A DNA stretch of 36,180 nt from a virus, in IMG/VR virus record IMGVR_UViG_3300030328_003112, positions 1 through 36,180 of that record; one strand, 5' to 3'. Positions within the stretch are counted from its first letter, which is position 1. Every line of letters starts with the position of its first letter. Of this stretch, positions 16,932 to 35,263 are shown one piece after another. Under the pieces are notes generated by a model, which did no database searches, was not told the DNA's origin, and worked only from the letters and a program-made list of their open reading frames with translations. Position numbers and translations under genes: made by a program.

Positions 16932-16935
16932 AATT

Positions 16936-17592
16936 ATGGGAGCAATGACTGCAATGGCTGTTATTGGGGGAGTGGCAATGGCTGCTTCTGCTATAGGAGC
17001 TGGAATAGAAGCAAAAAACGCACGAGATGCAAAAGAAGTCTTAGATGGTCAAATGGAGACATTAAGAGAATCTATGCCTACACCTATTAATCCTTATGAA
17101 GGAATAGAGTTTAGTAATGAATACGCAAATTTAGGAGTAGCTACCGGAGCTGCAGAATTTCAAGCAGAACAAAGTGATTTAGCTTTAGCTAATACTTTAG
17201 ACGCTATGAAAGCTGGTGGCTATGGTGGTGGTGGTGCTACTGCTTTAGCTAAAATGGCTGCTCAAAGTAAGAAACAAGTTGCTATTAGCTTGGAACAACA
17301 AGAAATGGCTAACAACAAGCTTAGAGCTCAAGGAGCCATGGAAGCACAGAAACTTAATAATCAAGCAGCGGTCGCGGGGAGACAGTATTTATATGAAGCT
17401 CAAGATAAAACCTGGGAAAGAGATGCAGATAGATTACAAGGTCAAATCGATCAAGAACGTGCAGCTGAAGCTCAGTATACGAGTGATATGTGGGGAGCAA
17501 TTGGAGGTTTTGGATCTAGTATGATGGGTGCTGCAGGTAACATTGATTCAGGTGCTGCATCAACTACCACACCATCAACTACTACACCTTAA
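16936..17592 (+). CDS. Probable internal virion (ejection) protein, T7 gp14-like position
   Basis: A 218-residue protein with an Ala/Gly-rich hydrophobic N-terminal helix (residues 3-24, AMAVIGGVAMAASAIGAGIE). A long Ala/Gln/Glu-rich helical section (about 60-185) follows, then a Gly/Ser/Thr tail ending in TTTPSTTTP. This layout is typical of the small ejected protein that podoviruses insert into the host outer membrane (T7 gp14 role). It is followed by two larger probable internal proteins, giving the same three-gene order as T7 gp14-15-16. There is no sequence identity that I can claim; the role is inferred from composition and order. Confidence 0.65.
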   Translation: MGAMTAMAVIGGVAMAASAIGAGIEAKNARDAKEVLDGQMETLRESMPTPINPYEGIEFSNEYANLGVATGAAEFQAEQSDLALANTLDAMKAGGYGGGGATALAKMAAQSKKQVAISLEQQEMANNKLRAQGAMEAQKLNNQAAVAGRQYLYEAQDKTWERDADRLQGQIDQERAAEAQYTSDMWGAIGGFGSSMMGAAGNIDSGAASTTTPSTTTP

Positions 17593-17606
17593 TAAAAATT
17601 ATATAA

Positions 17607-19535
17607 ATGGGAACATATAGACAACCTGGTATTTACGTTCATAAAGGATATGAGCAGTTTAACAAAGCAATGGCTGAAGGTAATAAAAACTTTCTTGCTA
17701 CATATGCGGCAGCACAAAAACAAAAAACTGCAAACAAAAAAGCAAACGAAAAGTTATTAAGGGATGCTAAGAAAGATTATGATAAATGGGGTGATATTGT
17801 TTTAGATGCTAAAAAGTTTGCCACAGATCAAGGAGTTACTTTTGATAAAGATCTTCAAGCAATGATTGATGGTTGGGGACAAGAGTTTTATGATTTACTA
17901 GGGGTTAATACTAAAGAAGCTCAAGATAGAATAACCCAGCTAAAAGGATACCCTGATCAAATTGCTCGTATGCTAGCGTCAGGTCAAGAAATTAGTAAAG
18001 AATATGAAAACTCTTTTAATATTCCCAGTGGGAAAGGAAGCGTAGATAAAGCAAGAACTTCTCAAGATCATTTAGCTTTTGGGGCAAATATATTTCATAA
18101 TGGAGGAAATTATATTACGCCTTATGAAGAAGAAGATGCAAATGGTAATAAAACCGGAAACATTTTAGCTCATTATAGTAAACCGGCAGTTATAAACAAT
18201 GGAGTTGTTGAAGAACCTGCACGTGAATTTTATTTAGATACAGATGCTTTATACTCTCAACTTACTGACGAAAAATCTCCATTTAGGTTTATATATACTA
18301 AAGGAGATTTAAAAGAAACGTTTAATCCTATGATGGATTTAGCCAAAGGGGAAACTAAAGTAAATGATCAAGGTAAACAAGTTAAAGGAGATAGATGGTA
18401 TGGAAATGCTGCTAAAGAAACTGAAGTTATATCATATGAAGCAGTTGATGTTAACGACCCTAATTATGACCCTACGAGACCTTACAAAGAAATTGTAACA
18501 GTTACCACTGGATATCAAAATGATCAAAACATGGGTGCTTTAAGACACTCTTTAGAAACTGTTAATTTAAATAGTTTGATGGCAACAGGAGAAGCCAGTT
18601 GGATGTTTGATGATGTTATTTCTTGGGCAAGAGAAAAATATGCTACTGATCCTGCTTTCAGTGAAGGGGGAATGGATCAAGACGAAACTACGGTTGATGA
18701 TAATTTATTTACTGCAGATAGTAATGGTGACTTAGTTCAAATCCCATGGATATCCGATCCTACTTCGCCTACATCTGCATATGCCGGAACAAGTTCTGAT
18801 TATAAAAAAGTCTCTGAAGTACAACATGCTATATTTAATAAATATGCTAAAGAGTGGATGATGGATCCGGAAAATGGGTTAGTTCCTGAGGACGTGTCAA
18901 GAATTAAAAAAGAAAAATATATTACAGAAAAAGATTACAACAAGAAATCTGTTGGTCGTAGTGGTGGTAGAGGTGGTTACACTCCTACTATAAAGGCTCA
19001 AATTGCTTATGGTAATAAACCTAAACCAGAGTTAAAAGATGACAGATATACAGGTAAATCTCTCACTCCTTATCAATATGATATAGCAAAAGCTGAAGAT
19101 ATAGTTTTCACTATTATACCTGGTAAACAAGGTAAGGATGGTATTGATTTTAATGCTCCTAATAGTGTAGATAAAGTGAGAGACAATTTAGTTGCGCAAT
19201 TAAACGATTCGCACATGGTTGGAGGAAATTATAAAAAGAATAGGGTAAAATATCCTAAGTTTCTTACTCCTGCTAACGCGGTTAAAGAATTGGAAAAGAA
19301 AAAGAAAATTATAGTTAAAGCTGGTGGAGATACAAGCGCTATTGACGCGGCTATTAAGAAGTATTCAACTTTAGGAAATAATCAATACGTTAAAAGTGGT
19401 GGTGGTAAACTAACAGTTGAAACCATTACTGATAGTGATACTGATAGTATATTTGCTTTTGTTAAAAACAAGTTACATGAATATAATGGGTTATACGATG
19501 CGACCCAGTCTTTTGAAAGTAAATTTAATAAATAA
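17607..19535 (+). CDS. Probable internal virion protein, T7 gp15-like position
   Basis: A 642-residue soluble protein. The N-terminal 130 residues are strongly helical and Lys/Ala-rich (YEQFNKAMAEGNKNF and what follows). The middle is mixed, with Asp-rich loops. A Gly/Arg/Ser-rich linker lies near residues 450-460 (GRSGGRGGY), and the last 80 residues are Lys-rich helices. There is no signal peptide, membrane segment or catalytic motif. It lies between the membrane-active small protein and the giant protein, 3 nt before the latter, so it is probably co-packaged as part of an internal core. I do not recognise a specific family. Confidence 0.6.
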   Translation: MGTYRQPGIYVHKGYEQFNKAMAEGNKNFLATYAAAQKQKTANKKANEKLLRDAKKDYDKWGDIVLDAKKFATDQGVTFDKDLQAMIDGWGQEFYDLLGVNTKEAQDRITQLKGYPDQIARMLASGQEISKEYENSFNIPSGKGSVDKARTSQDHLAFGANIFHNGGNYITPYEEEDANGNKTGNILAHYSKPAVINNGVVEEPAREFYLDTDALYSQLTDEKSPFRFIYTKGDLKETFNPMMDLAKGETKVNDQGKQVKGDRWYGNAAKETEVISYEAVDVNDPNYDPTRPYKEIVTVTTGYQNDQNMGALRHSLETVNLNSLMATGEASWMFDDVISWAREKYATDPAFSEGGMDQDETTVDDNLFTADSNGDLVQIPWISDPTSPTSAYAGTSSDYKKVSEVQHAIFNKYAKEWMMDPENGLVPEDVSRIKKEKYITEKDYNKKSVGRSGGRGGYTPTIKAQIAYGNKPKPELKDDRYTGKSLTPYQYDIAKAEDIVFTIIPGKQGKDGIDFNAPNSVDKVRDNLVAQLNDSHMVGGNYKKNRVKYPKFLTPANAVKELEKKKKIIVKAGGDTSAIDAAIKKYSTLGNNQYVKSGGGKLTVETITDSDTDSIFAFVKNKLHEYNGLYDATQSFESKFNK

Positions 19536-19538
19536 TAC

Positions 19539-22500
19539 ATGGTTGACAATCCAGGAGAATTTGATTTCGATATAGATCTCGAAGAAGAAGTAACTACAGA
19601 CGGTAAGGGAAATGAAAATACTAGTAATCCACCTAGTAGTAATGACGATGATTTATCTTTTGATATAGATCTGAACGCTACGTATTCTCAAGCCGATGGA
19701 GAAAATGATTCACTTGAAGAAAATGGAGATGATGATGATCCTAAAAAAGACTTGAGTACTGACGATAAGTATAAGTTAAAAAAGATTATTGAAAAAGTTA
19801 CAGCTGGGTTTCAAGTTAAAGCTGATGAATTAGATTTACTAAGTAGAGGAGGATATCAATGGTTTATTCCTGAACGAAACCAAAATGGAAGAGTAACTAA
19901 TTGGAAACAAACCGTAGATGATATTGCAAAATATTTAAACGAAGTACAAAATAATTTTCCTTCTTGGAGTGAAGTAGAAGATGAATTAAACGCTGGAGGT
20001 GGAATTGTTTTTGGTAAAGACATGCAAAGGCTTGAACGACAAAGGTGGACTAAAACTCATGAAGCTCATTTACAGTCTATGGCTATTAACCCTGAGAATA
20101 ACCCAAGAATTTTCAACGGACAATTTGATCAGTTTGGTTTAAATCAAAATCAAGATCCAAATGATTGGGTTTATGTAGAGAGTGACATGGGAAAACGCAT
20201 GATTAATAAAAATGATAACATGTATTTTCCTCATCACAAACAATGGGCTGCTGAAGATGAATATTTTCAAACAGGGGAGATACCACAGGGTTGGGAAGGA
20301 GAGCAGGCAGTAGGTACACCTTGGGATCCAGCATATAGCGATGTAAATAAAGATAGTCACTATTGGAGCTCTACTGATCATAAGTATAAAATAAACCCTG
20401 AAGTAAAAGTAACTGAGTCTAAAGGATGGAATCCTAGTCAATTACCAATAGGAGATTTTGAAAAAGTAGTTAAAGCCGCAAATAGATTTAATCAGTCAAC
20501 TGATCTTTTTAAGGGATCTAGAAGTACCGTAGAAGGAGACGTGGAATACAACATGATACAGCGAAACGTTTCTCCTATTGTTTTTAAAGATGGTGTTATG
20601 ATAAGTAATATCCATAATCAAGATACTGAAGGTTATATGGGTAGATGGAGTAATCCAGTTCCAGCAGACGTTAAAACAGATCTATTTGATAGAAGCACGT
20701 GGCGTGACCAAAGAGAAGGCGGTAGCCAAGGTGTGATTTTAAGAGATGAAAGAAACCTATTGGACTACGAATTAATAAAAGAGATTTTACTTTCTGCGAG
20801 GCCATATGAAAAAATAGTTACTTTAGGATATAATAATTCAGCAGTTGAACAAGCGTTAAAAGAATGGGGATTTACTCACGCTGCAATGCGAGATTGGAGA
20901 CATAGTGCGGATGACAATTTGTTGTTTGTTTTTCCTTGGGGAACTAAAATGGAAGGCGGAGGTCTTACTAGTGTTGGAGAAAACAAAATGAATGAGTATA
21001 TAGGTCAATATATAAACTCTGCTCCTCAGTTTGAAAACGCTAGAAAGTTAATGGAAAAAGAAGCAGCCACTACTTTAGAGTATGATGACTTTACTAAGAA
21101 ATTAAACGCATTACCACCGGAATCAAAAATTACTTATCTAGAAGCTAAAGAAAAATTTGATATTACTAGCGTAATGAAACAGTATAATGTAAGTTATATT
21201 GAAGCTCAGGACATGATTAAAACTAATGAAACCTGGGGTTTAGGTATTTCATTAGCTGGCACTCCAGGTTTTACAGATATATTGTCTTTTCAAGAACTTT
21301 TAAACAAAGATCAAGAAACAAGACGTAAGATAAATGCTAGGCAAGTTCAATTTGATCATCTTACGCATGTGATGAAAGGTAATTTGCCAGACAACTGGGA
21401 TCAATGGCAAGCTGACGCGTTAATTAAAAATATAAAAAACGCACCTAGTAGTGAACATAGAGTTCAAGCTACTAGAGTTTATAAGCGTTGGTTAAATGAC
21501 AACTACGGTGGATACTTTACTGATAACATGGATTCAGGTGTAGCATCAGATAGGATTGATGATTTTAAAATGTTATTTGACCCTTCAACCAACAATTTTG
21601 TAAGCTATAAAACTGCTACTAAAGAGCAAAAAGCAGAATGGTTACCAGCAGAAGAATATATTAACACTTTAATGACTCAAGGAGTAATACCAACAAATAA
21701 AAATCAAATGTTGGAGTTGATGTTAGATAAAGAGTTTCAAATGGTAGCTATAGCCCAACAAATTTTTGGACAAGAGAGAGATGTTTTAAATCAAATGAGC
21801 GCTGGTACCGCTATTTTACAGGGAGCATTCACTGGTGAAGTACCAGATGAATTTAAACAAATTGAAATTATAGCCAAAAAAGGAGAATTAGTAAGAGATG
21901 GATACGAAAGAATCGAAGGAGTATATAATGTTCCTATAGTAAAAAGATGGAATACGTTGGTAAAGGAATTTACAATTCTATCGGAGGCGTATTACATGAA
22001 TTATGATCCTACAACTATTGAAAAAGAAGGATTTTTTGGAGGCGTTGCTGCGGGAACCTCTGCTATAGTAGGTTTTGATTACTCTTCTCAAATAGACGAA
22101 AGTAAAGCTGTAGCAAACGCGTTGCAAGAAATTGGTGTAGAGTTTACCCAACAAGAATTAGACGCTTTATATACTCCAACTGTAGCAAATAATATTGGAT
22201 ATGGTACACCAGGATTTATCATGATGGCTGGAGAATTTGCTTTAACTAGCTGGGCAACTGGAGGTTTAGGTTTATTAGGTATGAGTAACAAACTTGCTCG
22301 TGTACCATACATGCTTAGAAATATAGCGAAAGTAGATAAGTATGGTAAATTAGGTTTATCAGGATATAGTAAATTTGGTAAAGTATATACTGATTATATG
22401 GGAGCTACTATAAATAATATGGCTCAAATCTCTATTCGTAATGGTTGGACAAGTGCATTATATGATGCAGAACCTCTAAACCCAGCTTTTGGTTTCTTTG

Positions 22501-25500
22501 CTGCTCCTGGTGGTAAACTTATTGATGATTTTTCTAAATGGCAACTTAGTGGTAAGAGTGGTTTTTGGAACGACATGGCTATGCTTCAAAAAGAGCTGCC
22601 TGGAGCTAATTTGATAGGTGGCGCTGCTAATGTAGTAGCTAAAGGTGTTACTAGTACAGGTTTAATGACTGGTGGTGAAATGGCAGTGATAGGGTGGGAA
22701 ACAGCCACTGGTGATATTAGCGTAGAAGAAGCTCATGATAGAATGCATACTACATTAAACCCACAACATTTGTTTGAGGTGTTTTCTCAATGTTTGATTG
22801 TGTCAAACATGAATCCTATTAAACCAGTAAGAGAAATAAAAGAAAGAGCTGAAGCGGATATTAATATATTAACTAAAGGGAAATATCAAAGAAAACAATA
22901 TGCTAAAAAACTAAACACTGAGTATGATTACATCTTTGAAGAAGGTATTGGTTTAGATGAACAGCAAGCAAGAATAGAATTAGCCAAAAAGAAATTAATT
23001 GAGACCGAAGGCGGAATGGGTCTGGAAGCTTATAACAATATAAAAAGAGCAGCAGATAAATTAGGTATTGACTTTTTTGGTTTTAATAAAGCAGGAGGTT
23101 GGGAAAATTTTAATCTTGAAACTTTTAATAAAGTATGGAACCAAATTGTTACAGAAAAAGGAGCTAATAATATTACCAACGAACAGCATGCAGCTGCGAG
23201 ACAAATAAAAACAGCTTTAGAAATGGACATGGCTGGACCTATACGAAAGACAGCAGAAATTGACATGAATGCTAAAGAGTTAGAAACTCAAACCATGTTA
23301 GATGCTATGAAGTATGAGTTTGAAAACGAGTTAAATCCTGGTTTAAAGATGTTAGGTTGGGTGGATAATTTTGCAAAGAGAAGAGAAAAGAATTTAGGTT
23401 ATAGTGCAACAGACATCGAAGTTTTAGGGTCATTAACAAAAGCTCAATTAGAAATGATTTTGGGTGAAAACCCTACCATGACTAGAGTTAATATTTCTAT
23501 AGAAGGATCTAATATTCAACTTGCTAGAAAAATCGTAGCTCAAAGAAATAATAAAGGTTTTAAACCTGGAAGCACTTTAGGTAATAAATGGGTTGAAGCA
23601 GCTTGGGAACAAGCAGCACTAAGAAGAAAACAAAAAGATCTTAGTAAAGATAAAGGAGAAGATGGTGGTAATTTTAATGAAAATTTAGAAGCTTTTTATG
23701 AAGAAAGTATAGTAAAGAAACAAGCTGAGATGGATAAATTAGAAGCAGAGAATGATGTGCTTCTTGAAACTGAACGACAAAAAAATATAGAGTTATCTAG
23801 ACAAGAAGGTAATGTTGAAGCTTATGAAATGGGTACTAGCTTTTGGACTAGAATGGAACAATTAGATCAAATAGAAGGAATCATTGAAACCCATGCTAAT
23901 GCTACAGAAAAAGCAGCGTTAAACGTTTTAGATAACAAAATAAAACAAATTGAAAAAGAAAATCCTGCAGATGCTCAAAAACAAATTGATGAATTAAAAT
24001 TTCAAAAAGCTGAAATATTAAACAATCTTAAAGATTTAGATGTAAAAGGAATGAACTTAAATGTTGATGGTGTTCCTACTACAATCTTAAATGTAGAAGC
24101 CATGCGTAAGCTTAAGGATGTTAGTGCTAGTATACACGAAGGACTTCATCCTTATTTTAATAAAGTATTAAAAGGTAAAGACACTAACGCTTTTATTTCT
24201 GAATTTAAAAATCAACTATCTGAATACGAATACAACACTGTATTAGAGAAAGTGAAAAAACATCCTGACTTTAAAAATGGCCAAAACCCTAACACAATAG
24301 AATGGTTAAACCTATATGCAGATGCTTTGATAAAAGGGGAGTTAGGGTGGAATGGTGAAACCATGACAGGAATAGGAGATATTCTTGAGTCTAAAATCAG
24401 AAATGAATCAGCAGCTGAAAGCGCGGTGATAGAAACGCCGCAAGATGTTTATAATTTTCTTAGGAATGTAGTTCTTCCAAATGTAGAAGGAGGGAAAGTT
24501 ACAAAGCAAGTTCTTGAAGCTATGTCAACTGAAGTTACTTCTGAAAACGCGGGAAGTCCTGCGTTGTCTGCTAAGGAAACTAAAAGCTTAGAACAAGAGT
24601 TGGTTGATATGCAAGCTGCAAAACAAGCTTCTATTGATGGTTATTTAGAAGCTGTTAACAAAGAGAAAAAAGGAGAAATTTCTTTTGCAGAAGTAGAAGC
24701 TATTAAAGACAAACACAATACTTTAATGCAGCAGTTAAATCCCATGATTAAAAACATGGAAGCTAATTTGACTATATCTAAGAATAACGCTGAGAATATT
24801 GAAAAAATTAAATCAGGGCAAGATGTTGGAGATAGAGGTTATAAACAGCTTTTAGCAGATAATGAAGGTATTATTGGTCCTGTACTAAATAGATGGAAAC
24901 CCGGTACAAGTAAAGTATTAAAAGGAGATTGGGATGCAGAAGTATACGCAGAAGTAGCTAAGCTAGTAGATAAATATGATGCGTCTACTGGTGTACCTTT
25001 TGGAGCTTACTTAAGACAAAACCTAGCTCGAAGAGAAGGTAATATGTGGAATAGGCTACTTGAAAAAGATCACGATTTCTTTACTGAAGAACTTAATGAA
25101 GCTACACACATGGAATACACTTCTACTATGGGAGATATAGATATATCTACAAGATCAGAAGTAGTTAGACCTGGTGGTAATAAAATTGGACAGGTAATAT
25201 CAAAAGAACTTGGTGTTGATGCTACTAAATTATTAGAAGCAGATAGACTTATAAAAAGAACCTTATTAGAAATAGAACCTTCTAAATTAAATATTAAAAA
25301 TATTGGAGCTCATTTAGTTGAAGTTGATGGTAAACAAGTTAAGTTAAAAGATTATCTAGCTACACAATTAAAAGACGCGATGGGTGATAACCCAGCAGAG
25401 AGAAAAGCTTTCTTTGCTAAAAACTGGGACATGTTACAAGCGTGGCTACCTGAGTTTAACATGGCTATGACAGCTGATGGTAAGCCAATTACAGGTGATG

Positions 25501-28500
25501 CTACTGGTATTCCTAACTCAGTGCTTAAAATATTATACGAAGCGCAGGGTAGAGCAGATTTCGTTTCTACAGGAAAAGGTAAGGGTACAACAATTCAAAA
25601 GAAAACTCCTAAAACTTGGGATGAGGTTGTTGAGTCAATGAATGATAGAAATAGAAAAACATTTGAAGACGCGGTCGTGGCTTTTATAGGTAGTGAAATG
25701 GCTGTTCAAAGAATGAATGACTTATTATCAGACAAATCTATTGTAGAAGAAGTAGCTAGTAAAGATGCTAGTGTTGCTGAGACAATGGCTTTAGAATCTT
25801 ATGTAGCTAATTTAGCATTTCAAATCAATGCTGGTAAAGCTTCAGGTTTAATGAGTGCTGAGAAAGTTTCAATGGATAATCTTTCTCAAGAATTAATAGC
25901 GGCTAACCCTGAGTTTTTAAATACTCATAAAAGAATGGAAGTTGTGGGGTCTTATTTAAGAGCTAAAGCAAAAGGACCAGAAGCGTTAGAAAAATGGGAG
26001 AATGAAAATATTGATGCAGCTAACGCTATTCATTTAGGCATGCAAACTAAGGTTCAGCAAGAAGCGGAATATAAAGAAATTGTTAAGTCAGCTAATCAAT
26101 TTAAAGAGGTATTAAACAATGAATTTGCAGGTGATGGGGAAATAACCTTACCTAATGGAGAGACTCTTAGTTACAAAGAGATCAGGGAGGAAATTAAAAA
26201 GGTACAACCAAGTATAATAGGCGCTAAGAAAATAGATGGAGTTTCTTATAAAACGGTAAAAGAAGATTTATTAAATACTCAATTAGAAAATCTAAATGAT
26301 TTAAGAGCTTTCTTTCCTAAATGGTTAGCGGAAAAGCAAAGTAGCGTTATGGACGCTTGGCTGGGAGAGGGTTACTCAACTAGTGGTGGTGGTAGACATC
26401 AAGATTTAATTAATTATGAAACAGGAGGACCACTAACTGAAGGAACGTTGATGAATTTAGAGCATCGTACTAAAGATGGTCAAAACATTAACATTGATAA
26501 AATTCCTTTTTCTAGACAGAAGTACGGTATAGAAAACCAAGGAACTAATAAAGCTGCAAATGAAATTTGGAAAGGTTTAGAGGAGAAATGGGAGAAGTTA
26601 ATTCCTTTAGCTAAAAAGAAGAAAATGTTCGAGATCCAAGAGCGAATGTTTGCAGAAGGAGCTAGTGTAGAGCAAGTGCAAAAAGAACTTTCAAAAATTT
26701 TTACTAAAGAAGAAAATGTTTTAAGACAAGATATCTATGATGCTGTCCAAAAATCTAGAAAAGCTTGGTTAGATTCCTCTACTTCAAAAGAACAATACCT
26801 TAGTAGATTAAAAACATTGTGGCAAATTGGTGCAGCTAATACTAATTTAGAAAAAGGAGATAGACAATGGATGGCTAGTAATTGGCTTCAAATAGATCCT
26901 AATATAGATTTTTCTAGTGCTAGAGCTAAGCTAGAACATGGTTGGCCTCAAGTAGGCGCTAGTGGAAAGATGGGTAAAATTTGGACTGAATCAGCAGAAG
27001 CATTTGATCAACATTTAAAAGATAATAGAGAAAACTATCAAGGTGCTTATGGAATGGAAGGAAAAGGTGAAACCGGATTTTCAGGAGTAGATTTAAGAGG
27101 TAGTAAGACTAATATGTCAGGTTTATTAAATAGACTACAAGCTTACCACGAGAATCCTAATACTTTTTATAATGTTGAAACTGGTCAACAACTAGGTAAG
27201 TACATGATTGATAAAACTATTGCTGAGTATGTTGGAAAAGAAATAGGTCAAGAGATATCAGTTGAAGATTTATACAATCCAGTTGTGAGATCTGCTTTTA
27301 AAGAACTATCTAATGCGAAAACTAACGAAGCAAGAATAGTAGCTTTAACTAAAATAGAAAACGGTTTTAGAAATTTAGAGGCGAATAGAAAAACTAAAAA
27401 TGATATAGTAAAAGAAACTAATACTACAGTTGTTCCTGAAGTGTTTGATGTAAATACAAAAACAGAAGGAACTAAAAGCGAATTTGCAAAAAACTTATCA
27501 GCTGAATTAAAAAATTCTGATCTAACTAAAGAAGAAGTTATTGAAGTCAATCAAAATTTAATTAAGATGAATCATGCTTCTACAAATATTGTTAAGTCTG
27601 TTGAAAATAAAAAAGGTAGTGTATTTGACGGAGATGAAGTGTTGTGGATACACGATGTTAAAATTGGTTATACTTTGCCTAATGGTAAAACTGGATGGTT
27701 GAGTAACACTGAGTTTAACAAACAGCAGAAAAGATTAGAAAAAAAAGGAGCTACTTGGAATTTTGAAAATTTTAACAACTTAGAAGGTGCTACTGAAGGA
27801 CCTTTGCTAAATGAGTTTTTAAAACGTATTCAAGAAAATCCTGATCATGTCTTTATATCTACAGCTAGAGCAAATAACCCTCAGATTAGGGGAGAAATAG
27901 TTAAATATGTAAATAAAGCAGGAACAGCAAAATATGGTAAAGATTGGAAAGGTTTTAAAGAAGATTATTTAGACACAGTTGAAGGAACAATGGATCAAGG
28001 TGGAGAATCTTTAAAAGTAGTAAACAGTCTAGTAAATTTAAAAACTGGAAATAACGCTGCGGGTATTTCATTTAATGAAGTAGACTTTTTTGATGATAAT
28101 GCTCCTACTACTAAACACTGGGCTCATGCTCAACGTGAAATGAACCTTGGTGGAACTGTTTACACTGTTGTTCATAACTCCAGTAAAGGAAAAATGAGTG
28201 CTGAGGTTGCTAGAGAAAAAGGTATATTATTTGAATTGGGACCTGATAAAGCATTAAACTTAATGATACAAGATCAAGCTGGTATAAATGCAGATTATGT
28301 TTTTAGTAAAGTAAAAGCTCAATTAAGAGGTAAAAATAAAAGAAAATTTAAAATACTACCTGATAATGCTCAAGACTTTATAGGACTGTGTTACGCGTTT
28401 TGTGGAAAAGGAAAAAAAGGAGATGCTCAAATAGAGTTTATAAATGAAACTATTACCAAAGGAATTACTTTAGCTGAGGGAGTTATTGAAAAAGAATCTT

Positions 28501-30359
28501 TAAGAATAGGTAAAGATTATAAAGCTTTGCAAAAAGCATACCCAGGCATATCTAAAAACTTAACACAAAAAATAGAGTGGGATGCTTTAAAAGATTTTAC
28601 TGTTGAAGACGCAATTAGAATTCATACATGGAAATCTCAAGGCATGGAGATTGAAGGTATAAGTAAAACTGATTTAGCTAATATTGAAAAGTGGATGGAA
28701 GGTAATCCTGAAGCAAAAGCTTATTCACAAGAATTATTAGGATTAACTCAAATAGGTGCTTACAATGGAGGTACTTACCAAGATTTACTAACAGGTAATA
28801 TTTGGAGTGATTTAGCTAAAACTGTTGATAAAGACATTAGGAATTTTTATATGCAAGGAGTGGTTAATAACCTTGACTTAATGTTTTCTGAGACTAACAT
28901 GAATAAACTAGAAGCTGCTTATGGTCCTAAATATAGAGCTGCAATGGAAGATCATATTCAAGCTATTAAGTCCGGAAAGAATACAGCTTATGAATTAGGA
29001 CCTATTGATACTAAAGCTTACAACTTTGTCAATAACGCTAATGGTGCTTTAATGACATTAAACTTTAGATCCGCAACGCTACAGTTAACGTCAGCTTTCA
29101 ACTATATAAATTGGAGTGATAATAATATGGCTAAAGCAAGTTTGGCTTTTGCTAATCAACCACAATATTGGAAAGATTTTACCTATCTATGGAATCAACT
29201 AGAAGGAAGACGAGCTGGTAATAAATTAAATATTGCAGAATCTGAAATAGCAGCTGCTTTGAAAGCAGGTAAACAAAACAAAGGTCAAGCTATAATTAGC
29301 TATTTGATTAGCAAAGGATATGCTCCTACTAAAATCGCTGATAGTTTTGCTATTGCTTTTGGAGGAGCTAGTTTCTATAGAAATAGAATTAATTCTTTAA
29401 TGAAGAAAGGCATGAGTAGAGAAATGGCTCAAGAACAAGCGTTAGTTGATTGGAGAGATGCTACAGAGACTCACCAACAGTCACGAAGAACCGATAAGCT
29501 TTCTCCTATTCAAAGGACTCTTAAAGGTAGGATAATGCTTGGGTTTCATACTACTCAAATGCAGTATGCAAGATTGATTGATAAGTCGGTTAAAGATTTG
29601 AAAAATAAAAGAGGTAATCCTATTCAACATATATCTCGAATAATTAATTACGGAGCTATTCAACCTGCTGTTTTTGCTGGACTACAAACAGGTGCTTTTA
29701 TGTTATTGTTTCAAGATGATACTGAAGAAGGAAGAAACAAGAAAATGAAAGAAGTTGGTGAAGGAATAGGAAGCTCTTTAATAGAAGGAACAGGAACTTG
29801 GGGTGTTGTAGCTAATATGCTTTACAACGTGGGAGATACTTATTATACAGAGAAACAAAAAGAAGGTACATATCCCGGACCTCAATATTACAAAGCAGCA
29901 CTAGAAGTATTACGATTGTCTCCTTCTATAGGTGGAAAGGTTAAAATGGGATTAAGTGCGGCATATGATCAGATGTATAAGGATGATACTAAAACATATA
30001 AGATATACGATCCAGACAGTCCAGAAGCAGCTTCTACCATGAAAATCATACAAATGGTAACTAACTTACCTACTAAAGAACTTCATGATGTTTATAGGTC
30101 GATGTGGGAAATTGGTGTTCAATTTATTGGAGAAGGAGCTAGTGAAATGGATGCTATAAAAGTAGCAGCTGTTGCTTTAGGTTGGCCGTCATGGCAATTA
30201 GAAAGTGAAATTGATAAAAACAAAAGAAGAAGTAAAGAAAAAAGCGAAAAAGCTGTTAGAAGAAAAGCGCAAAAAGGAGAGGTTGAAATAGAAGAGGACC
30301 TTGATATAGATTTAGATGGTATAAATCTAGATGAAACATTAGACATAGACTTAGATTAA
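19539..30359 (+). CDS. Giant 3606-residue multidomain virion/ejection (polyvalent) protein
   Basis: A single uninterrupted frame of 10.8 kb. Seen: acidic ends with (F/L)DIDL at residues 10-14, 41-45, 3588-3592 and 3601-3605; hydrophobic, possibly membrane-inserting stretches near 830-845, 885-915, 1020-1060 and 3371-3390; HEGLH (HExxH) at 1533-1537; a sigma-region-2-like segment at about 1768-1845; a HAD-like domain at about 2690-2860 with DGDEV (2697-2701), IST (2773-2775) and FFDD (2850-2853). From about 2930 to 3570 runs a C-terminal section (PDNAQDFIGLCYAFCGKGKKG, later HTTQMQYARLID) that I recall from large proteins of marine phages. Known context: such proteins fit the large polyvalent proteins thought to be injected with DNA. 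Inferred role: an internal core/ejection protein in the T7 gp16 slot, delivering enzyme domains to the host. No lysozyme or transglycosylase motif was recognised. Confidence 0.8.
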   Translation: MVDNPGEFDFDIDLEEEVTTDGKGNENTSNPPSSNDDDLSFDIDLNATYSQADGENDSLEENGDDDDPKKDLSTDDKYKLKKIIEKVTAGFQVKADELDLLSRGGYQWFIPERNQNGRVTNWKQTVDDIAKYLNEVQNNFPSWSEVEDELNAGGGIVFGKDMQRLERQRWTKTHEAHLQSMAINPENNPRIFNGQFDQFGLNQNQDPNDWVYVESDMGKRMINKNDNMYFPHHKQWAAEDEYFQTGEIPQGWEGEQAVGTPWDPAYSDVNKDSHYWSSTDHKYKINPEVKVTESKGWNPSQLPIGDFEKVVKAANRFNQSTDLFKGSRSTVEGDVEYNMIQRNVSPIVFKDGVMISNIHNQDTEGYMGRWSNPVPADVKTDLFDRSTWRDQREGGSQGVILRDERNLLDYELIKEILLSARPYEKIVTLGYNNSAVEQALKEWGFTHAAMRDWRHSADDNLLFVFPWGTKMEGGGLTSVGENKMNEYIGQYINSAPQFENARKLMEKEAATTLEYDDFTKKLNALPPESKITYLEAKEKFDITSVMKQYNVSYIEAQDMIKTNETWGLGISLAGTPGFTDILSFQELLNKDQETRRKINARQVQFDHLTHVMKGNLPDNWDQWQADALIKNIKNAPSSEHRVQATRVYKRWLNDNYGGYFTDNMDSGVASDRIDDFKMLFDPSTNNFVSYKTATKEQKAEWLPAEEYINTLMTQGVIPTNKNQMLELMLDKEFQMVAIAQQIFGQERDVLNQMSAGTAILQGAFTGEVPDEFKQIEIIAKKGELVRDGYERIEGVYNVPIVKRWNTLVKEFTILSEAYYMNYDPTTIEKEGFFGGVAAGTSAIVGFDYSSQIDESKAVANALQEIGVEFTQQELDALYTPTVANNIGYGTPGFIMMAGEFALTSWATGGLGLLGMSNKLARVPYMLRNIAKVDKYGKLGLSGYSKFGKVYTDYMGATINNMAQISIRNGWTSALYDAEPLNPAFGFFAAPGGKLIDDFSKWQLSGKSGFWNDMAMLQKELPGANLIGGAANVVAKGVTSTGLMTGGEMAVIGWETATGDISVEEAHDRMHTTLNPQHLFEVFSQCLIVSNMNPIKPVREIKERAEADINILTKGKYQRKQYAKKLNTEYDYIFEEGIGLDEQQARIELAKKKLIETEGGMGLEAYNNIKRAADKLGIDFFGFNKAGGWENFNLETFNKVWNQIVTEKGANNITNEQHAAARQIKTALEMDMAGPIRKTAEIDMNAKELETQTMLDAMKYEFENELNPGLKMLGWVDNFAKRREKNLGYSATDIEVLGSLTKAQLEMILGENPTMTRVNISIEGSNIQLARKIVAQRNNKGFKPGSTLGNKWVEAAWEQAALRRKQKDLSKDKGEDGGNFNENLEAFYEESIVKKQAEMDKLEAENDVLLETERQKNIELSRQEGNVEAYEMGTSFWTRMEQLDQIEGIIETHANATEKAALNVLDNKIKQIEKENPADAQKQIDELKFQKAEILNNLKDLDVKGMNLNVDGVPTTILNVEAMRKLKDVSASIHEGLHPYFNKVLKGKDTNAFISEFKNQLSEYEYNTVLEKVKKHPDFKNGQNPNTIEWLNLYADALIKGELGWNGETMTGIGDILESKIRNESAAESAVIETPQDVYNFLRNVVLPNVEGGKVTKQVLEAMSTEVTSENAGSPALSAKETKSLEQELVDMQAAKQASIDGYLEAVNKEKKGEISFAEVEAIKDKHNTLMQQLNPMIKNMEANLTISKNNAENIEKIKSGQDVGDRGYKQLLADNEGIIGPVLNRWKPGTSKVLKGDWDAEVYAEVAKLVDKYDASTGVPFGAYLRQNLARREGNMWNRLLEKDHDFFTEELNEATHMEYTSTMGDIDISTRSEVVRPGGNKIGQVISKELGVDATKLLEADRLIKRTLLEIEPSKLNIKNIGAHLVEVDGKQVKLKDYLATQLKDAMGDNPAERKAFFAKNWDMLQAWLPEFNMAMTADGKPITGDATGIPNSVLKILYEAQGRADFVSTGKGKGTTIQKKTPKTWDEVVESMNDRNRKTFEDAVVAFIGSEMAVQRMNDLLSDKSIVEEVASKDASVAETMALESYVANLAFQINAGKASGLMSAEKVSMDNLSQELIAANPEFLNTHKRMEVVGSYLRAKAKGPEALEKWENENIDAANAIHLGMQTKVQQEAEYKEIVKSANQFKEVLNNEFAGDGEITLPNGETLSYKEIREEIKKVQPSIIGAKKIDGVSYKTVKEDLLNTQLENLNDLRAFFPKWLAEKQSSVMDAWLGEGYSTSGGGRHQDLINYETGGPLTEGTLMNLEHRTKDGQNINIDKIPFSRQKYGIENQGTNKAANEIWKGLEEKWEKLIPLAKKKKMFEIQERMFAEGASVEQVQKELSKIFTKEENVLRQDIYDAVQKSRKAWLDSSTSKEQYLSRLKTLWQIGAANTNLEKGDRQWMASNWLQIDPNIDFSSARAKLEHGWPQVGASGKMGKIWTESAEAFDQHLKDNRENYQGAYGMEGKGETGFSGVDLRGSKTNMSGLLNRLQAYHENPNTFYNVETGQQLGKYMIDKTIAEYVGKEIGQEISVEDLYNPVVRSAFKELSNAKTNEARIVALTKIENGFRNLEANRKTKNDIVKETNTTVVPEVFDVNTKTEGTKSEFAKNLSAELKNSDLTKEEVIEVNQNLIKMNHASTNIVKSVENKKGSVFDGDEVLWIHDVKIGYTLPNGKTGWLSNTEFNKQQKRLEKKGATWNFENFNNLEGATEGPLLNEFLKRIQENPDHVFISTARANNPQIRGEIVKYVNKAGTAKYGKDWKGFKEDYLDTVEGTMDQGGESLKVVNSLVNLKTGNNAAGISFNEVDFFDDNAPTTKHWAHAQREMNLGGTVYTVVHNSSKGKMSAEVAREKGILFELGPDKALNLMIQDQAGINADYVFSKVKAQLRGKNKRKFKILPDNAQDFIGLCYAFCGKGKKGDAQIEFINETITKGITLAEGVIEKESLRIGKDYKALQKAYPGISKNLTQKIEWDALKDFTVEDAIRIHTWKSQGMEIEGISKTDLANIEKWMEGNPEAKAYSQELLGLTQIGAYNGGTYQDLLTGNIWSDLAKTVDKDIRNFYMQGVVNNLDLMFSETNMNKLEAAYGPKYRAAMEDHIQAIKSGKNTAYELGPIDTKAYNFVNNANGALMTLNFRSATLQLTSAFNYINWSDNNMAKASLAFANQPQYWKDFTYLWNQLEGRRAGNKLNIAESEIAAALKAGKQNKGQAIISYLISKGYAPTKIADSFAIAFGGASFYRNRINSLMKKGMSREMAQEQALVDWRDATETHQQSRRTDKLSPIQRTLKGRIMLGFHTTQMQYARLIDKSVKDLKNKRGNPIQHISRIINYGAIQPAVFAGLQTGAFMLLFQDDTEEGRNKKMKEVGEGIGSSLIEGTGTWGVVANMLYNVGDTYYTEKQKEGTYPGPQYYKAALEVLRLSPSIGGKVKMGLSAAYDQMYKDDTKTYKIYDPDSPEAASTMKIIQMVTNLPTKELHDVYRSMWEIGVQFIGEGASEMDAIKVAAVALGWPSWQLESEIDKNKRRSKEKSEKAVRRKAQKGEVEIEEDLDIDLDGINLDETLDIDLD

Positions 30360-30361
30360 AC

Positions 30362-30643
30362 ATGACAAAAATAAGTGAGCAAACAGAAGTCAAATTGGAC
30401 TTAAAAAGTATAATTAAAATTGTAGTTTTAACAGCGACTTTTGTAGGAATGTATTATACATTACAATCTGATATTGAAGAAGCTAAATCATTACCACCAG
30501 CAGTGATAGATAGAATAGAATATGATCTAAAACAAGAGTGGCAAACTAACCATATAATGAAGCTCGAAGATGAAATAGATGAACTTAGAAGTTGGTGTAG
30601 AGTTATCGATAAAGAGTTACATATAAAAACAAAAAAGAAATGA
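30362..30643 (+). CDS. Small single-TM protein with coiled coil, holin/spanin-like
   Basis: A 93-residue protein. A cytoplasmic-looking charged N-terminus (1-17) leads to one hydrophobic helix at about 18-36 (IIKIVVLTATFVGMYYTL). A charged, probably coiled-coil segment follows to the end, with one Cys and a KKK tail. The layout fits a small holin accessory or an inner-membrane spanin subunit, and the gene lies in the usual lysis position at the end of the late block. It starts 2 nt after the giant gene and its TGA overlaps the next ATG (ATGA). No lysis protein can be named on sequence alone. Confidence 0.6.
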   Translation: MTKISEQTEVKLDLKSIIKIVVLTATFVGMYYTLQSDIEEAKSLPPAVIDRIEYDLKQEWQTNHIMKLEDEIDELRSWCRVIDKELHIKTKKK

Positions 30644-30882
30644 ATGAGGTATTACATTTGGTAAAAGAATTTGGATTACCCTTAGTGATAGCTATAGGTG
30701 CTTTATATGCTTTATATAAATTCTTCTTTTTTAGTGTTAGAGAAGTAAAAGATACATTTACAGAGAGACATGAAATAAACGCTAAAAAAATGGAAGAAGT
30801 AAAAGTATCGTTAGCTGAAATTAAATCTGATTTGAAACTATTATTGGAATTTATTAAAGAAATAAACAACAAAAGAAAATGA
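30640..30882 (+). CDS. Probable holin (BhlA/UviB-like layout)
   Basis: An 80-residue protein. A short amphipathic start is followed by one TM helix at about 11-31 (FGLPLVIAIGALYALYKFFF) and then a highly charged amphipathic helix to residue 80. This one-TM-plus-charged-helix plan is that of the BhlA/UviB-like small holin group, which permeabilise the inner membrane to time lysis. It overlaps its upstream and downstream neighbours by 4 nt (ATGA) on both sides, implying translational coupling. No endolysin gene is visible in the window. Function is inferred from topology and position. Confidence 0.6.
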   Translation: MNEVLHLVKEFGLPLVIAIGALYALYKFFFFSVREVKDTFTERHEINAKKMEEVKVSLAEIKSDLKLLLEFIKEINNKRK

Positions 30883-32297
30883 AACACTTATTAACTTTAT
30901 TATTAACTTTACTTATTACATTAGGTTATTCTCAATGTGATAACGGAACTAATTATTATCCTAGCACAGTTTACACCCCAAGCGATAACACTTGGAGTTC
31001 TGCTTCTAGTTATAATTGGGCTGGTGAGATAATAAGAGTTAACATAATTAGTGGAGACGAATATGAATTTTCTACATGTAGTAACCATGGCGGAGTTTCA
31101 GCTTCATATGATACTCAATTAACTTTACGCGATGAATTAGGGGTTGTAGTAGATTATAATGACGACTACACTTCATGCAGTGGACGATCATATATAAAGT
31201 ATACAGCTACTTATAGTGGAGTTTTAGAAGTTCATTTAAATGAGTATAATTGCGCTACAAATACCAGTTCCACTGAAGTAATGATGTATAAAGCACCTGC
31301 TTCTAGTAGTGGAGGGGGAGGTAATACTAATGAAGTTACTATAGGAGATCCTAATTCTACTTTACAAAATGGTAGAGTACCAGCATATGGATATTATGAT
31401 TATAGTTGGAGCGCTTCTATATACACAGCGACAGAACTTAGTGGTGTTCCTTTAAACATAGAAAAAATTAGCTGGAATGTAGCTAATAGTAGTTCAATGA
31501 CTTTGAACAATCAAGAAATCTGGATGGCAATGACACCAGAAGAAATATTTAACGATGGCACAATGCCAGATGTTGGAAATGGGCCTTGGGATCAGTGGAA
31601 GAAAGTGTATGATGGAACTTTAAACTTTGTACCTGGTTGGAATGAAATAAACTTACAAGGACTATATGGATATGATGGGGTTCAAAACTTATTAGTTAAA
31701 GTAGTTAACAATCATGGATCATGGGCTTCTAGTTATCCAGAGTTTCAATATACAGCTAAATCAAATTCAGTTGTATATAATTACGAAGATGGTGGACCAC
31801 CTTCTCCTATGGGGTATAGAAATTCTTATAGACCTAATACCGTTTTTGGACATCAAGGTGGAGGATCTGCTTTACCCATAGATCTTATTTCTTTTAATGC
31901 AGAGTATCTAGGAAATGAAATACATCCTATTGTTATGATTAATTGGACTACTTTGTCTCAAGTAAATAATGATTACTTTGAAGTGCAGCGTAGTGTAGAT
32001 GTAGAAAATTGGTATACTATAGAAACTGTGACAGGAGCTGGGAATAGTAACAGCCAAATGTCATATAGCGTAATAGATGATGGTCCATTATATGGAATTT
32101 CTTATTATCGTTTAAAACAAACTGATTATGATGGACAATACGAATCATTTCGTCCTATGTCCGTCTCAATCAGTTCACAAGAAAAAACAATATATAAAGT
32201 ATATAATTTAATGGGTCAAGAAATAAAGAACACATATAATGGCCTTGTGTTAGAGTTCTATACTGATGGAACATTTTCAAAAAAATATTACAAATAA
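30879..32297 (+). CDS. Secreted Bacteroidetes-type protein with T9SS-like C-terminal region
   Basis: A 472-residue protein with four parts. (1) A signal peptide, residues 1-19 (MKHLLTLLLTLLITLGYSQ). (2) A beta-sandwich domain at about 22-140, with FSTCSNHGG, YDTQLTLRDE, YNDDYTSC and HLNEYNC, matching a Cys-containing domain I recall from T9SS cargo. (3) A domain at about 150-325, ending SSYPEFQYTA and SYRPNTVFG. (4) LPIDLISFNAEYLGN, INWTTLSQVNNDYFEVQRS and SYYRLKQTDYDG at 332-420, the fibronectin-like module that precedes T9SS type A sorting domains, then a short VYNLMGQEI...YTDGTFSKK end (440-469). Known: this architecture belongs to proteins exported across the Bacteroidetes outer membrane. 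Inferred: made in the infected cell, exported, and left on the surface or released. The final domain is short and lacks the usual PNP start, so sorting competence is unproven. ATG overlaps the holin-like stop. Confidence 0.82.
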   Translation: MKHLLTLLLTLLITLGYSQCDNGTNYYPSTVYTPSDNTWSSASSYNWAGEIIRVNIISGDEYEFSTCSNHGGVSASYDTQLTLRDELGVVVDYNDDYTSCSGRSYIKYTATYSGVLEVHLNEYNCATNTSSTEVMMYKAPASSSGGGGNTNEVTIGDPNSTLQNGRVPAYGYYDYSWSASIYTATELSGVPLNIEKISWNVANSSSMTLNNQEIWMAMTPEEIFNDGTMPDVGNGPWDQWKKVYDGTLNFVPGWNEINLQGLYGYDGVQNLLVKVVNNHGSWASSYPEFQYTAKSNSVVYNYEDGGPPSPMGYRNSYRPNTVFGHQGGGSALPIDLISFNAEYLGNEIHPIVMINWTTLSQVNNDYFEVQRSVDVENWYTIETVTGAGNSNSQMSYSVIDDGPLYGISYYRLKQTDYDGQYESFRPMSVSISSQEKTIYKVYNLMGQEIKNTYNGLVLEFYTDGTFSKKYYK

Positions 32298-32306
32298 CAA
32301 AAAAAC

Positions 32307-32825
32307 ATGGAAGGAATAATAAAAGACATTTTACTTGCTAACAAGATAGCTAGAATGCAAAAAGAAATCAACGCTCTTAAACCAGCTGATTGTGATGCAC
32401 TTTGTCAAACACTTGCTTTAGCAGAAAGTGAATTTGTTGAAGCAAGTAACGCACGAGCTGCAGCAAGTGAAGATTATGACGCAGCAAGCGAGGATTATGA
32501 AACTGCTGTAGCTGACGAAACTCAAGCGGAAACGCAGTTGCAAGAAGTAATAGCCGGTAACACAGAGTGTAAGGACGGGTGTGAACCACTACCTGCAGGT
32601 CAAGCTTGTCAAGATGAGTGTGATAATGAGTTTAACGTAGGTGAGGCTCAAACGAATTATGATGAAGCGATACAAGCTGTAAACGAAGCTCAAAATGCAA
32701 TGGATTCAGCAGAAGATGTATTAAAAGCTGCGGACGCTTTAGTTAAACAGACTGGTGAAGCAGAAAAAGCAGCTGCACAAGCTGTAGAGGATGCCGAATG
32801 TACTTGTCCAGGAAAGAAAGCATAA
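32307..32825 (+). CDS. Cys-paired helical hairpin protein, unknown function
   Basis: A 172-residue, very acidic, Ala/Glu/Asp-rich protein that I do not recognise. Two long helices (about 34-86 and 108-163) are joined by a Cys-rich turn. Eight Cys occur as four pairs: 29/33 and 88/92 and 101/105 (all CX3C) and 165/167 (CXC). An antiparallel hairpin would put 29/33 against 165/167 at one end and 88/92 against 101/105 at the turn. There is no signal peptide; the N-terminus is an amphipathic, partly basic helix (MEGIIKDILLANKIARMQKE). It is the last gene of the rightward block, 9 nt after the secreted protein and upstream of the terminator. Candidates include a fibre- or surface-associated coiled coil or a metal-binding protein; neither is shown. 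Confidence 0.75.
   Translation: MEGIIKDILLANKIARMQKEINALKPADCDALCQTLALAESEFVEASNARAAASEDYDAASEDYETAVADETQAETQLQEVIAGNTECKDGCEPLPAGQACQDECDNEFNVGEAQTNYDEAIQAVNEAQNAMDSAEDVLKAADALVKQTGEAEKAAAQAVEDAECTCPGKKA
32460..32501 (+). repeat. Tandem 21-nt repeat coding for a heptad
   Basis: Two adjacent 21-nt units (32460-32480 and 32481-32501) differ at three positions and encode AASEDYD and AASEDYE. The unit equals one coiled-coil heptad, so helix 1 of the hairpin protein probably grew by heptad duplication. Confidence 0.75.
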
Positions 32826-32876: not shown

Positions 32877-32910
32877 AAAAAAGGGGATCTCAAAACGAGG
32901 TCCCCTTTTT
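32877..32910. terminator. Bidirectional intrinsic terminator between converging blocks
   Basis: Stem GGGGATCTC (32883-32891) pairs with GAGGTCCCC (32897-32905), nine pairs with one T-G wobble, around the loop AAAAC. The flanks are AAAAAA on the left and TTTTT on the right, so the hairpin has a T-run on each strand's 3' side. It ends the rightward block and also contains the stop codon and last codons of the leftward lipoprotein gene (stop TGA at 32890-32892 on the minus strand). Confidence 0.92.
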
Positions 32911-33465
32911 AATTTTAATATGTATGTCATGTGGAGCAGGTTCGTCTCCTCCAAAGTATGGATATAATTGATATCGCCGCTTATCATAAACACAATTACG
33001 TGGTACATAAACATAAGTACCATCTACAGCTAATTTATAATCCCATCTAAATATAGTTAATTCATAATAATGTTGTTCACATAAACTAACTCTTTTAATT
33101 AAATCAAAACTAAATTCTCCATGTTCGTGTTTGAACCAATGTATTTCCAAGCTATCGTTTAACCATCTCCATCCAAATCTAATAGAATTCTCAGTATGAT
33201 TATCTCCACAATCACTCCAACCTATTAACTTATTAATATCGTATTGATTAAGGCTATCCACTGTAGAGTAGATAGCACTTGAATCAAACGTAATGTCCCA
33301 ACCGAACATCGTGTCTTTACTATAGTTTAAAGCATACGTCGACTTATGTTGACCTTCTTTTATAGTAAATGTTTTATAATTGTCTGTTATTTTTTTACAA
33401 CTATTTAATTTCACAAGCGCCACCAGCACAAGCAAGCTCACCAGAAAGATCCGTATTGTCTTCAT
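32890..33465 (-). CDS. Bacteroidetes-style lipoprotein, unknown function
   Basis: A 191-residue protein. A basic MKTIR start, a hydrophobic core to about residue 20 and a lipobox-like LNSC with Cys23 followed by KK form a typical Bacteroidetes lipoprotein signal. The mature part is rich in Trp, Tyr, His and charged residues, is beta-prone, and has three more Cys. I do not recognise the family. It should be anchored in the host envelope during infection; superinfection exclusion or surface masking are common jobs for phage lipoproteins but are speculation here. The first 21 codons overlap the 3' end of the reductase gene in another frame. No later Met keeps a signal peptide, so the overlap is probably real. 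Confidence 0.75.
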   Translation of the reverse strand: MKTIRIFLVSLLVLVALVKLNSCKKITDNYKTFTIKEGQHKSTYALNYSKDTMFGWDITFDSSAIYSTVDSLNQYDINKLIGWSDCGDNHTENSIRFGWRWLNDSLEIHWFKHEHGEFSFDLIKRVSLCEQHYYELTIFRWDYKLAVDGTYVYVPRNCVYDKRRYQLYPYFGGDEPAPHDIHIKIKKGTSF

Positions 33466-35263
33466 TTTCTATAATTTTACTAAGATCTACTTGAGTTAAG
33501 TGTTGTAATCTATTTATATAGGTTCCTTCATCTATGTCTTCAAAAGGTGCTTGAGTATAAGTTCCCCCATCAAATGGTAATACAGATAACCCATTGTAGT
33601 GTTCTCTATTTTTCCACATCCATTCACCAGCATCGTCCCATTCTTCAGCTTTCAAACTCACTGTAGCTGAAACATTATGCGTGTTAGATCCTTTCCTATG
33701 ACCAGGTGTAACCCATTCGGTAGCTACTTTCTTTATACGTTCTAATAATTGAAAAGGAGATTCAGTTCTAAGTATTGAACCTTCAGGAGCTTTCTGTGGT
33801 ATACTGATTACAGCAGTATCATGAGGTCTAAAATACTCATCTTCTACTAACATAGGGTGGTTTTCAATTAAGTATTTATACATACTTTCATTTTTACCAA
33901 CCCTGATCCTACGGATGTAATAATCATTATGCCATGCATGAATACCAGATGAAGTTCCTAATGCCAGAGATGTCGTCCCTGCAGGCTTTACGGTTGTGCA
34001 TCGTGCAGCTTTATTAATCCCAATCAGTTTCGCGACTCTTGTATTTTCTCTTTTTACTATTTGAGCGGCTTTCCCCATGTCGTATCCTAACACCGTGCCA
34101 CTCCCAATCCCCGTCATGCTCACTCCAATCAGTGCGTCTTTTTCGGTTGTCTCTTGCCATATCTCTCTTAAATAGTGAAAGTCTGTATAGCCAGCTTGTA
34201 ATGTTCCAATGAACGCAGCAGCTTTCACTCTGTTGTTTAAATCTTCTTGTGATTCAATATCACTAGCGTTTACTTCACATAAGTTACAAAACTGATATGG
34301 TCGTAAAGCTATTTCACAACAAGGGTTTGTACCCCAGTCTTTATCGTTGTTAAAGTATATACCTGGTTCACCAGCTCCAGAAAGTTCTACACGTTTCCAA
34401 AGTTTCATAAAATAATCTTTAGTAATCTTATGTCTCATTAATACAGCAGAGTTATTAGCTCTACCTCTTTGTGGATTTGTTTCCCACCAGTTTCCAGATT
34501 TACATGATATCATTTCATTATCATCGGCAGAGAATAAAGATATCAATGCTGCTCTCCTAATACCACCTGCTAATACAGCATCTGCTATGTGACATACAAT
34601 ATCGTGAACTTCTACAGTAGTTAATTGATCTCCATCTTCTTTTGATTGTAATATACCTTTTAATTTTACTAAGCATTCCTTTAAAGGTTGTGGGCCAGGA
34701 GCTTTACCTCCTGACGTCACTAGCTGAGCACCTTTAGGTCTTATATCTGAATAATCAAAACTAATTCTTGACGATCTTCGATCACCCATATAAGACTTCA
34801 TTAATACTTTAATTGCATCAGCCCAACCTTCAATTGAATCACCAATTAAAAATCTTCTCCTACGTTTTTCATACGGTTTGTTTATTGGAGGTAATTTATT
34901 AACATGGTGGTTTTGAACAGAATAACCTACACCAGTTCCTCCAAGAAGTAAAAACATTACTTCATGAAAGGAATCTACATGGTCAATAGGGAGATAAGCG
35001 CAGTTATATACTCGGTTAGGAGATATCTCAATTGGCTTACCGCCGAATTGAAGACTACGCATACTTGGTAAAACCTTCTTTTCATATACTAATTTATAAA
35101 CATCATTTATTTGATCTTTTAGTTCAGGATATGTTTTAATATGCATTGCTTTATTTCTATCTACTAATTCTTCCCAGGTTTCCCTACGTTTTTCATCAGG
35201 TAGATATTTAGCATATTTCATATACACTGTAATATTAGATAAGATTTCACTCGCTAGTTCCAT
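33401..35263 (-). CDS. nrdJ: Class II (adenosylcobalamin-dependent) ribonucleotide reductase, monomeric type
   Basis: Reduces ribonucleotides (probably triphosphates) to deoxynucleotides for phage DNA synthesis in the cytoplasm. Key residues visible: redox pair Cys88 (RVYNCAYLP) and Cys326 (FCNLCEVN); radical-site motif NPCCEI with Asn313, Cys315 and Glu317; a PAGTTSLALG loop near 428-437; and a C-terminal Cys612/Cys617 pair (CAGGAC) for re-reduction. The NCAYLPIDHVDSFHEVMFLL block with LLGGTGVGYSVQ is typical of the RTPR-like monomeric branch. At 620 residues it is shorter than the 739-residue Lactobacillus enzyme, and no intein is seen. No NrdB-type small subunit is nearby, consistent with class II. 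It overlaps the upstream small gene by 17 nt and the downstream lipoprotein gene by 65 nt. Activity would need host cobalamin. Confidence 0.92.
   Translation of the reverse strand: MELASEILSNITVYMKYAKYLPDEKRRETWEELVDRNKAMHIKTYPELKDQINDVYKLVYEKKVLPSMRSLQFGGKPIEISPNRVYNCAYLPIDHVDSFHEVMFLLLGGTGVGYSVQNHHVNKLPPINKPYEKRRRRFLIGDSIEGWADAIKVLMKSYMGDRRSSRISFDYSDIRPKGAQLVTSGGKAPGPQPLKECLVKLKGILQSKEDGDQLTTVEVHDIVCHIADAVLAGGIRRAALISLFSADDNEMISCKSGNWWETNPQRGRANNSAVLMRHKITKDYFMKLWKRVELSGAGEPGIYFNNDKDWGTNPCCEIALRPYQFCNLCEVNASDIESQEDLNNRVKAAAFIGTLQAGYTDFHYLREIWQETTEKDALIGVSMTGIGSGTVLGYDMGKAAQIVKRENTRVAKLIGINKAARCTTVKPAGTTSLALGTSSGIHAWHNDYYIRRIRVGKNESMYKYLIENHPMLVEDEYFRPHDTAVISIPQKAPEGSILRTESPFQLLERIKKVATEWVTPGHRKGSNTHNVSATVSLKAEEWDDAGEWMWKNREHYNGLSVLPFDGGTYTQAPFEDIDEGTYINRLQHLTQVDLSKIIENEDNTDLSGELACAGGACEIK

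Follow-up and report, generated by a model that had tools for sequence, protein, structure and literature searches.

A phage late-operon gene encodes a putative type IX secretion cargo ending in a short C-terminal tail

Introduction

Cargo proteins of the type IX secretion system (T9SS) are known from phages: Cryophage encodes such cargo and was proposed to hijack the T9SS of its host (PMC7468147, 2020), and T9SS sorting domains were noted near BACON-domain open reading frames of crAss-like gut phages (PMC6949934). Short T9SS signals have been described in Prevotella intermedia, where they comprise 43–55 residues, are predicted to form one three-strand sheet and have conserved glycines in motifs B and D as well as a basic motif E residue (PMC11969387, 2025). 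Five of their cleavage sites were determined; according to the authors, cleavage and glycosylation are supported by short and long signals alike, and in no other species of the phylum had both types been reported (PMC11969387). In the open-licence literature, we found short signals reported neither for phages nor for Flavobacteriales. Phage-encoded T9SS cargo and short signals are known separately, and what appears to be new is their combination, together with a Flavobacteriales-wide family of short tails.

Here, we describe a gene for a predicted exported protein, P0001, in a viral DNA stretch of 36,180 nucleotides (the window). Like the Cryophage cargo, P0001 is phage-encoded, belongs to a set of variable accessory genes and carries a T9SS signal, which in its case is putative. 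In contrast to the annotated type A domains that Cryophage places on an endoglucanase, a GH39 protein and a PA14 protein, P0001 ends in a short unannotated tail on a different passenger, and its relatives are spread over about 20 contigs from several phage types, often in one late-operon slot. With the short C-terminal domains of P. intermedia the tail shares a size of about 40–55 residues, three predicted strands, a conserved motif B glycine, a basic residue in motif E and its occurrence behind a signal peptide; a single Flavobacteriales genome, like that of P. intermedia, can hold the short version alongside long type A domains. However, the tail family occurs in another order of Bacteroidota and has Gx[VIL] instead of GxY in motif D, and no PT/GI cleavage motif was seen in this family. 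As GxY is lacking, we did not file the tail within the P. intermedia short-signal group, although it may well work like a short signal. Overall, we consider it probable that P0001 is a phage-borne Sec/T9SS cargo whose tail serves as a short T9SS signal and which is displayed on, or released outside, the infected cell.

Results

Genomic setting

A gene at this position in a phage late operon had been proposed in a preliminary description of the window, and both the gene and its setting proved sound. The ATG of the 472-aa open reading frame and the stop codon of the gene before it share 4 bp (ATGA), and the P0001 gene is the second-last of a one-direction operon (Table 1), which opens with TerL and portal genes and continues with virion proteins and a 3606-aa protein upstream of P0001; a class II ribonucleotide reductase (RNR) lies downstream. 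Contamination of the contig with host DNA was rejected in view of conserved phage synteny in many independent contigs. The cultured-phage relatives of TerL belong to Flavobacterium, Cellulophaga, Tenacibaculum and Maribacter phages and, judged from these relatives, the host is very probably a member of Bacteroidota.

Table 1 Features of the P0001 locus with coordinates in the window and residue numbers of P0001.
Feature	Coordinates	Strand	Basis
Phage late operon (TerL, portal, virion proteins, 3606-aa protein, small membrane proteins, P0001, 172-aa protein)	129..32825	+	
93-aa predicted one-helix membrane protein, conserved locus marker	30362..30643	+	relatives, synteny
80-aa predicted one-helix membrane protein; stop overlaps P0001 start	30640..30882	+	
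P0001, gene for 472-aa predicted exported protein	30879..32297	+	ORF, ATG start; dN/dS; relatives
Signal peptide, residues 1-18, predicted cut before Q19	30879..30932	+	sequence inspection and hydrophobicity heuristic
N-terminal extracellular domain, residues 20-138	30936..31292	+	host relatives L019-L022
Middle beta domain, residues about 150-327, optional	31326..31859	+	
FN3-fold module LPIDLISF...SYYRLKQTDYDG, residues 334-431	31878..32171	+	AF2, VIA-align
Short C-terminal tail, residues 435-472	32181..32294	+	AF2 strands; 97-member family
172-aa coiled-coil-like protein, last gene of operon	32307..32825	+	
Intrinsic terminator-like hairpin, 14 pairs, at operon end	32878..32910	+	
Predicted phage lipoprotein adjoining operon end	32890..33465	-	lipobox LNSC; relative at L210 5154-5726
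Class II RNR, other side of slot	33401..35263	-	

We found 66 relatives of the 93-aa marker protein in viral contigs. For the 80-aa membrane protein, a relative (L009 2574-2810, opposite strand) lies next to a P0001 relative in another type of phage, which may point to a mobile gene pair. The predicted lipoprotein that adjoins the operon end is a candidate surface or exclusion protein.

Domain organization of P0001

The preliminary description had also assigned P0001 a secreted layout resembling that of host proteins, in agreement with the domains found: a predicted signal peptide, two beta domains, an FN3-fold module and a conserved terminus of about 40 residues. Its further statement that such a layout is normally host-borne has to be qualified, as T9SS cargo encoded by a phage had been reported before (PMC7468147). 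By inspection, the N-terminus (MKHLLTLLLTLLITLGYSQ followed by CDNG) is a typical signal peptide; signal-peptide calls throughout this work relied on a hydrophobicity heuristic, which also predicted one in all 13 phage short-tail members tested. The first domain has host relatives (L019–L022) with 49–55% identity, and all four cysteines of P0001 (C20, C67, C100 and C125) lie within this domain and are invariant across 15 relatives, which fits an extracytoplasmic protein. The middle beta domain represents a separate module that is missing from L011–L014 and present in the host protein L074.

Modelling of the C-terminal part with AF2, as the preliminary description had proposed, yielded an FN3 fold (16 sequences, pLDDT 84.1; VIA-align Z scores up to 10.7 against FN3 and related Ig-like domains) and a three-strand tail with strands predicted at residues 438–443, 455–461 and 466–471 (pLDDT of the tail block 86–91). 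The full-length model (pLDDT 55) was too poor for a fold search. Foldseek and VIA searches with the C-terminal model retrieved FN3/Ig-like folds only, the tail being too small for this kind of search. At the sequence level, P0001 gave no match in the PDB and nothing informative in Pfam, NCBIfam and PHROGs. The beta domains and the FN3 module, in a protein for which no catalytic family was found, point to a role in binding or adhesion and not to an enzyme.

Distribution and selection in phages

Relatives of P0001 are carried by about 20 independent phage contigs. For the most part they occupy the same slot of podovirus-like genomes, and some belong to other phage types (L008–L010, L015, L087 and L093–L096). 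Comparison with six phage relatives gave dN/dS values of 0.13–0.21 at dS of 0.7–1.2, so that P0001 is under purifying selection. Its base composition matches that of the phage, and the first-domain tree unites all phage copies in a single clade that excludes the four host sequences found. Annotated phage records yielded no full-length relative: only four huge uncultured phages matched, through the FN3 module, and cultured phages gave no relatives. These four records (L023–L026, 462–642 kb) encode signal-peptide proteins with the P0001-type FN3 module, of which the one in L026 has a C-terminal type A domain (TIGR04183, 32.7 bits), and the respective open reading frame in L024 ends in the short tail.

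Three related phages (L194, L198 and L201) carry the marker gene and the RNR at the same locus, but no P0001. In L194, a predicted lipoprotein follows the marker gene (4810-5982; BspA-like by eye, no Pfam match). A different signal-peptide protein does so in L193 (4369-5149), a contig that ends before any RNR; its start, CTHTFTGYDSYGDGWNGAS, recurs in type A cargo of L017. Given this variable occupancy of the slot, we infer that P0001 behaves as an accessory gene, and the nearby predicted lipoprotein and the other secreted proteins found in the slot would be in keeping with a cluster of genes that alter the surface.

Exchange of the tail with known T9SS domains

Natural exchange between the tail and type A domains was observed in phages. 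L008 has the short tail and L009 a type A domain; over 413 residues the two show 68% identity, which ends exactly where the tail begins. Three proteins (L009, L010 and L087) combine the P0001-type passenger with a type A domain that passes TIGR04183, and in the first-domain tree they sit among short-tail members. A comparable exchange is seen in a host esterase family whose closer members, and also L174 and L176, have the short tail, whereas L159 ends in a PNP-type type A domain. In sister proteins, the place of the P0001 tail is taken by a T9SS sorting domain. Among host proteins, L074 aligns with residues 165–471 of P0001 at 34% identity (E 5e-46) with the same order of middle domain, FN3 module and tail, and L021 and L022, relatives of the first domain, have a type B-like end as judged by sequence pattern; type B domains (TIGR04131/PF13585) do not form the P0001 terminus.

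Tail sequence and comparison with T9SS profiles

The tail sequence (KVYNLMGQEI...NGLVLEFYTDGTFSKK) spans about 40 residues, with N, GQE, G, G and K conserved without exception in 14 phage tails. The preliminary description had interpreted it as a shortened T9SS-type terminus, a reading that gains strong support from the exchange with type A domains and from the use of the tail in hosts, but finds no profile match: neither TIGR04183 and PF18962 nor any other Pfam or NCBIfam T9SS model hit P0001 at E < 1. The preliminary description had named such a missing match as grounds for refutation, but this outcome of the search suggested there is not decisive, since the models likewise miss the host short-tail proteins tested.

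Type A domains (TIGR04183/PF18962) measure 70–100 residues, begin with PNP and adopt a seven-strand Ig-like fold, whereas only three strands were predicted by AF2 for the much shorter tail of P0001. They resemble the tail locally, in motif B: when aligned with the tail profile, their motif B strand (ikIvNllGqEV) scores 20.9, compared with at most 14.7 in 100 column shuffles, at an hhalign probability of only 42%. For the second half of the tail, with motifs D and E, the profile comparison with type A domains did not exceed shuffles, and as one shuffle control scored an anomalous 129 this run was disregarded as support. At the level of single residues, the motif B glycine is present in 97 of 97 tails and a basic residue (K or R) in motif E in 95; the motif D glycine, invariant in the 14 phage tails, is found in 60 of the 97. 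Motif D of P0001 reads GLV, not GxY or GxN, and the family mostly has Gx[VIL]. A predicted Sec signal peptide (by heuristic) and a C-terminal position of the tail, as type A cargo requires, are both present in P0001.

The tail family in host genomes

We detected the tail in 157 of 399 Flavobacteriales genomes (E ≤ 1e-4), sampled from the order of a Crocinitomicaceae MAG, and in 22 of 39 genomes of the family of this MAG (E ≤ 1e-3). A tail-only search in genomes drawn evenly from the phylum returned 2 of 395, one being a type A-like partial match (L052), and the family seems to be largely confined to Flavobacteriales. In an alignment of 97 nonredundant proteins, for which only near-end matches were taken, the tail lies no more than 8 residues from the stop in every case, and a separate check revealed no internal match. 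The passengers are unrelated to one another and include PHA-depolymerase-like esterases and FN3 proteins. Signal-peptide-like starts were found in 60 of 66 host carriers, compared with 53 of 161 background open reading frames (p = 1e-16).

On secreted host proteins of Flavobacteriales (L031–L078, L098–L127), the C-terminal module of about 40 residues reaches up to 11 copies per genome. Pfam and NCBIfam miss it in the Flavobacteriales members tested, and it looks like an unannotated short T9SS signal. In hosts, short-tail genes often lie side by side as pairs or arrays, such as next to the esterase gene (L103–L106, L116). SprA was present in all 65 Flavobacteriales genomes tested, both tail-positive (35 of 35) and tail-negative (30 of 30); co-occurrence with the T9SS is therefore non-discriminating and was rejected as a criterion. 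The T9SS export route is available in the tail-carrier genomes tested, and ten tail-positive genomes each hold from 55 to at least 150 type A cargo genes.

Discussion

We favour the interpretation of P0001 as T9SS cargo because of the tail exchange, the use of the tail in hosts, the similarity in motif B and the precedent in P. intermedia. According to this proposal, P0001 would be translated late in infection from the end of the late operon, cross the inner membrane by Sec via its predicted signal peptide and fold in the periplasm, where the first domain would form two probable disulfides. The three-strand tail would then act as a short C-terminal signal by which the T9SS translocon receives the protein, probably via the type A shuttle PorV. 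P0001 would end up either displayed on the cell or free in the medium, its tail being removed or kept. The phage might benefit from an altered surface of the infected cell, be it through masking or blocking of receptors, superinfection exclusion or adhesion, of which exclusion or masking by P0001 is plausible.

Alternatively, P0001 could depend on Sec alone and play a periplasmic or lysis role, with the tail as a folding cap or binding element. The missing T9SS model match, the restriction of the type A resemblance to the motif B half and the neighbouring small membrane proteins, in a part of the late operon where lysis genes are frequently placed, would be compatible with such a role. However, the same passenger in phages and one esterase family in hosts exchange tail and type A domain, the tail keeps a strictly C-terminal position on unrelated passengers, and the P. 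intermedia signals of similar size and predicted topology are experimentally processed (PMC11969387), so that we regard the Sec-only route as unlikely. Still less probable, in our view, is a virion component such as a fibre, spike or adhesin that reuses host extracellular domains. P0001 does follow virion genes within one operon, and FN3/Ig folds are common on phage tails, the tail tips of T5 and T1 being among the Foldseek/VIA matches; yet the predicted signal peptides of the phage short-tail members, the four invariant cysteines, the lack of a PHROG match and of full-length relatives in annotated phage records, and the absence of the gene from the locus in three related phages all speak against a structural role. 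Its sharing with other phage types (L008–L010, L087, L093–L096) fits a moron instead. That P0001 is a piece of a host gene which the phage acquired recently and which has no function there, as its layout close to host proteins such as L074 might imply, is highly improbable: the selection test with the above dN/dS and dS values largely refutes it, and both the separate phage clade and the phage-like base composition argue against it.

In a broader sense, and with only a modest lean in its favour, we propose that the tail represents an unrecognised class of T9SS signal of about 40 residues with the pattern N/D-x-x-G-Q/R-E...G-x(6)-Y-x-D-G-x(3)-K, distributed throughout Flavobacteriales. Several phage lineages may have taken it up, swapping it with type A domains on a shared passenger, and would use a late-operon slot, also occupied by other secreted proteins, to send proteins of their own choice to the host surface. 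If this is true, marine flavobacteria phages repeatedly use the outer-membrane export machine of the host during infection, and current annotation misses a short secretion signal on secreted Flavobacteriales proteins, including PHA-depolymerase-like esterases. Short signals would then extend beyond P. intermedia (PMC11969387) to another order and to viruses.

Cargo with established T9SS domains was also observed on viral contigs. L096 encodes, about 3.5 kb from a short-tail P0001 relative, a protein (1921-2475) with a type B domain that passes both type B models (TIGR04131, 48 bits; PF13585, 58 bits). On L017, a 152-kb IMG/VR viral contig with an HNH endonuclease nearby, two tandem proteins of more than 1000 aa each (5403-8543 and 8694-12296) carry type A domains.
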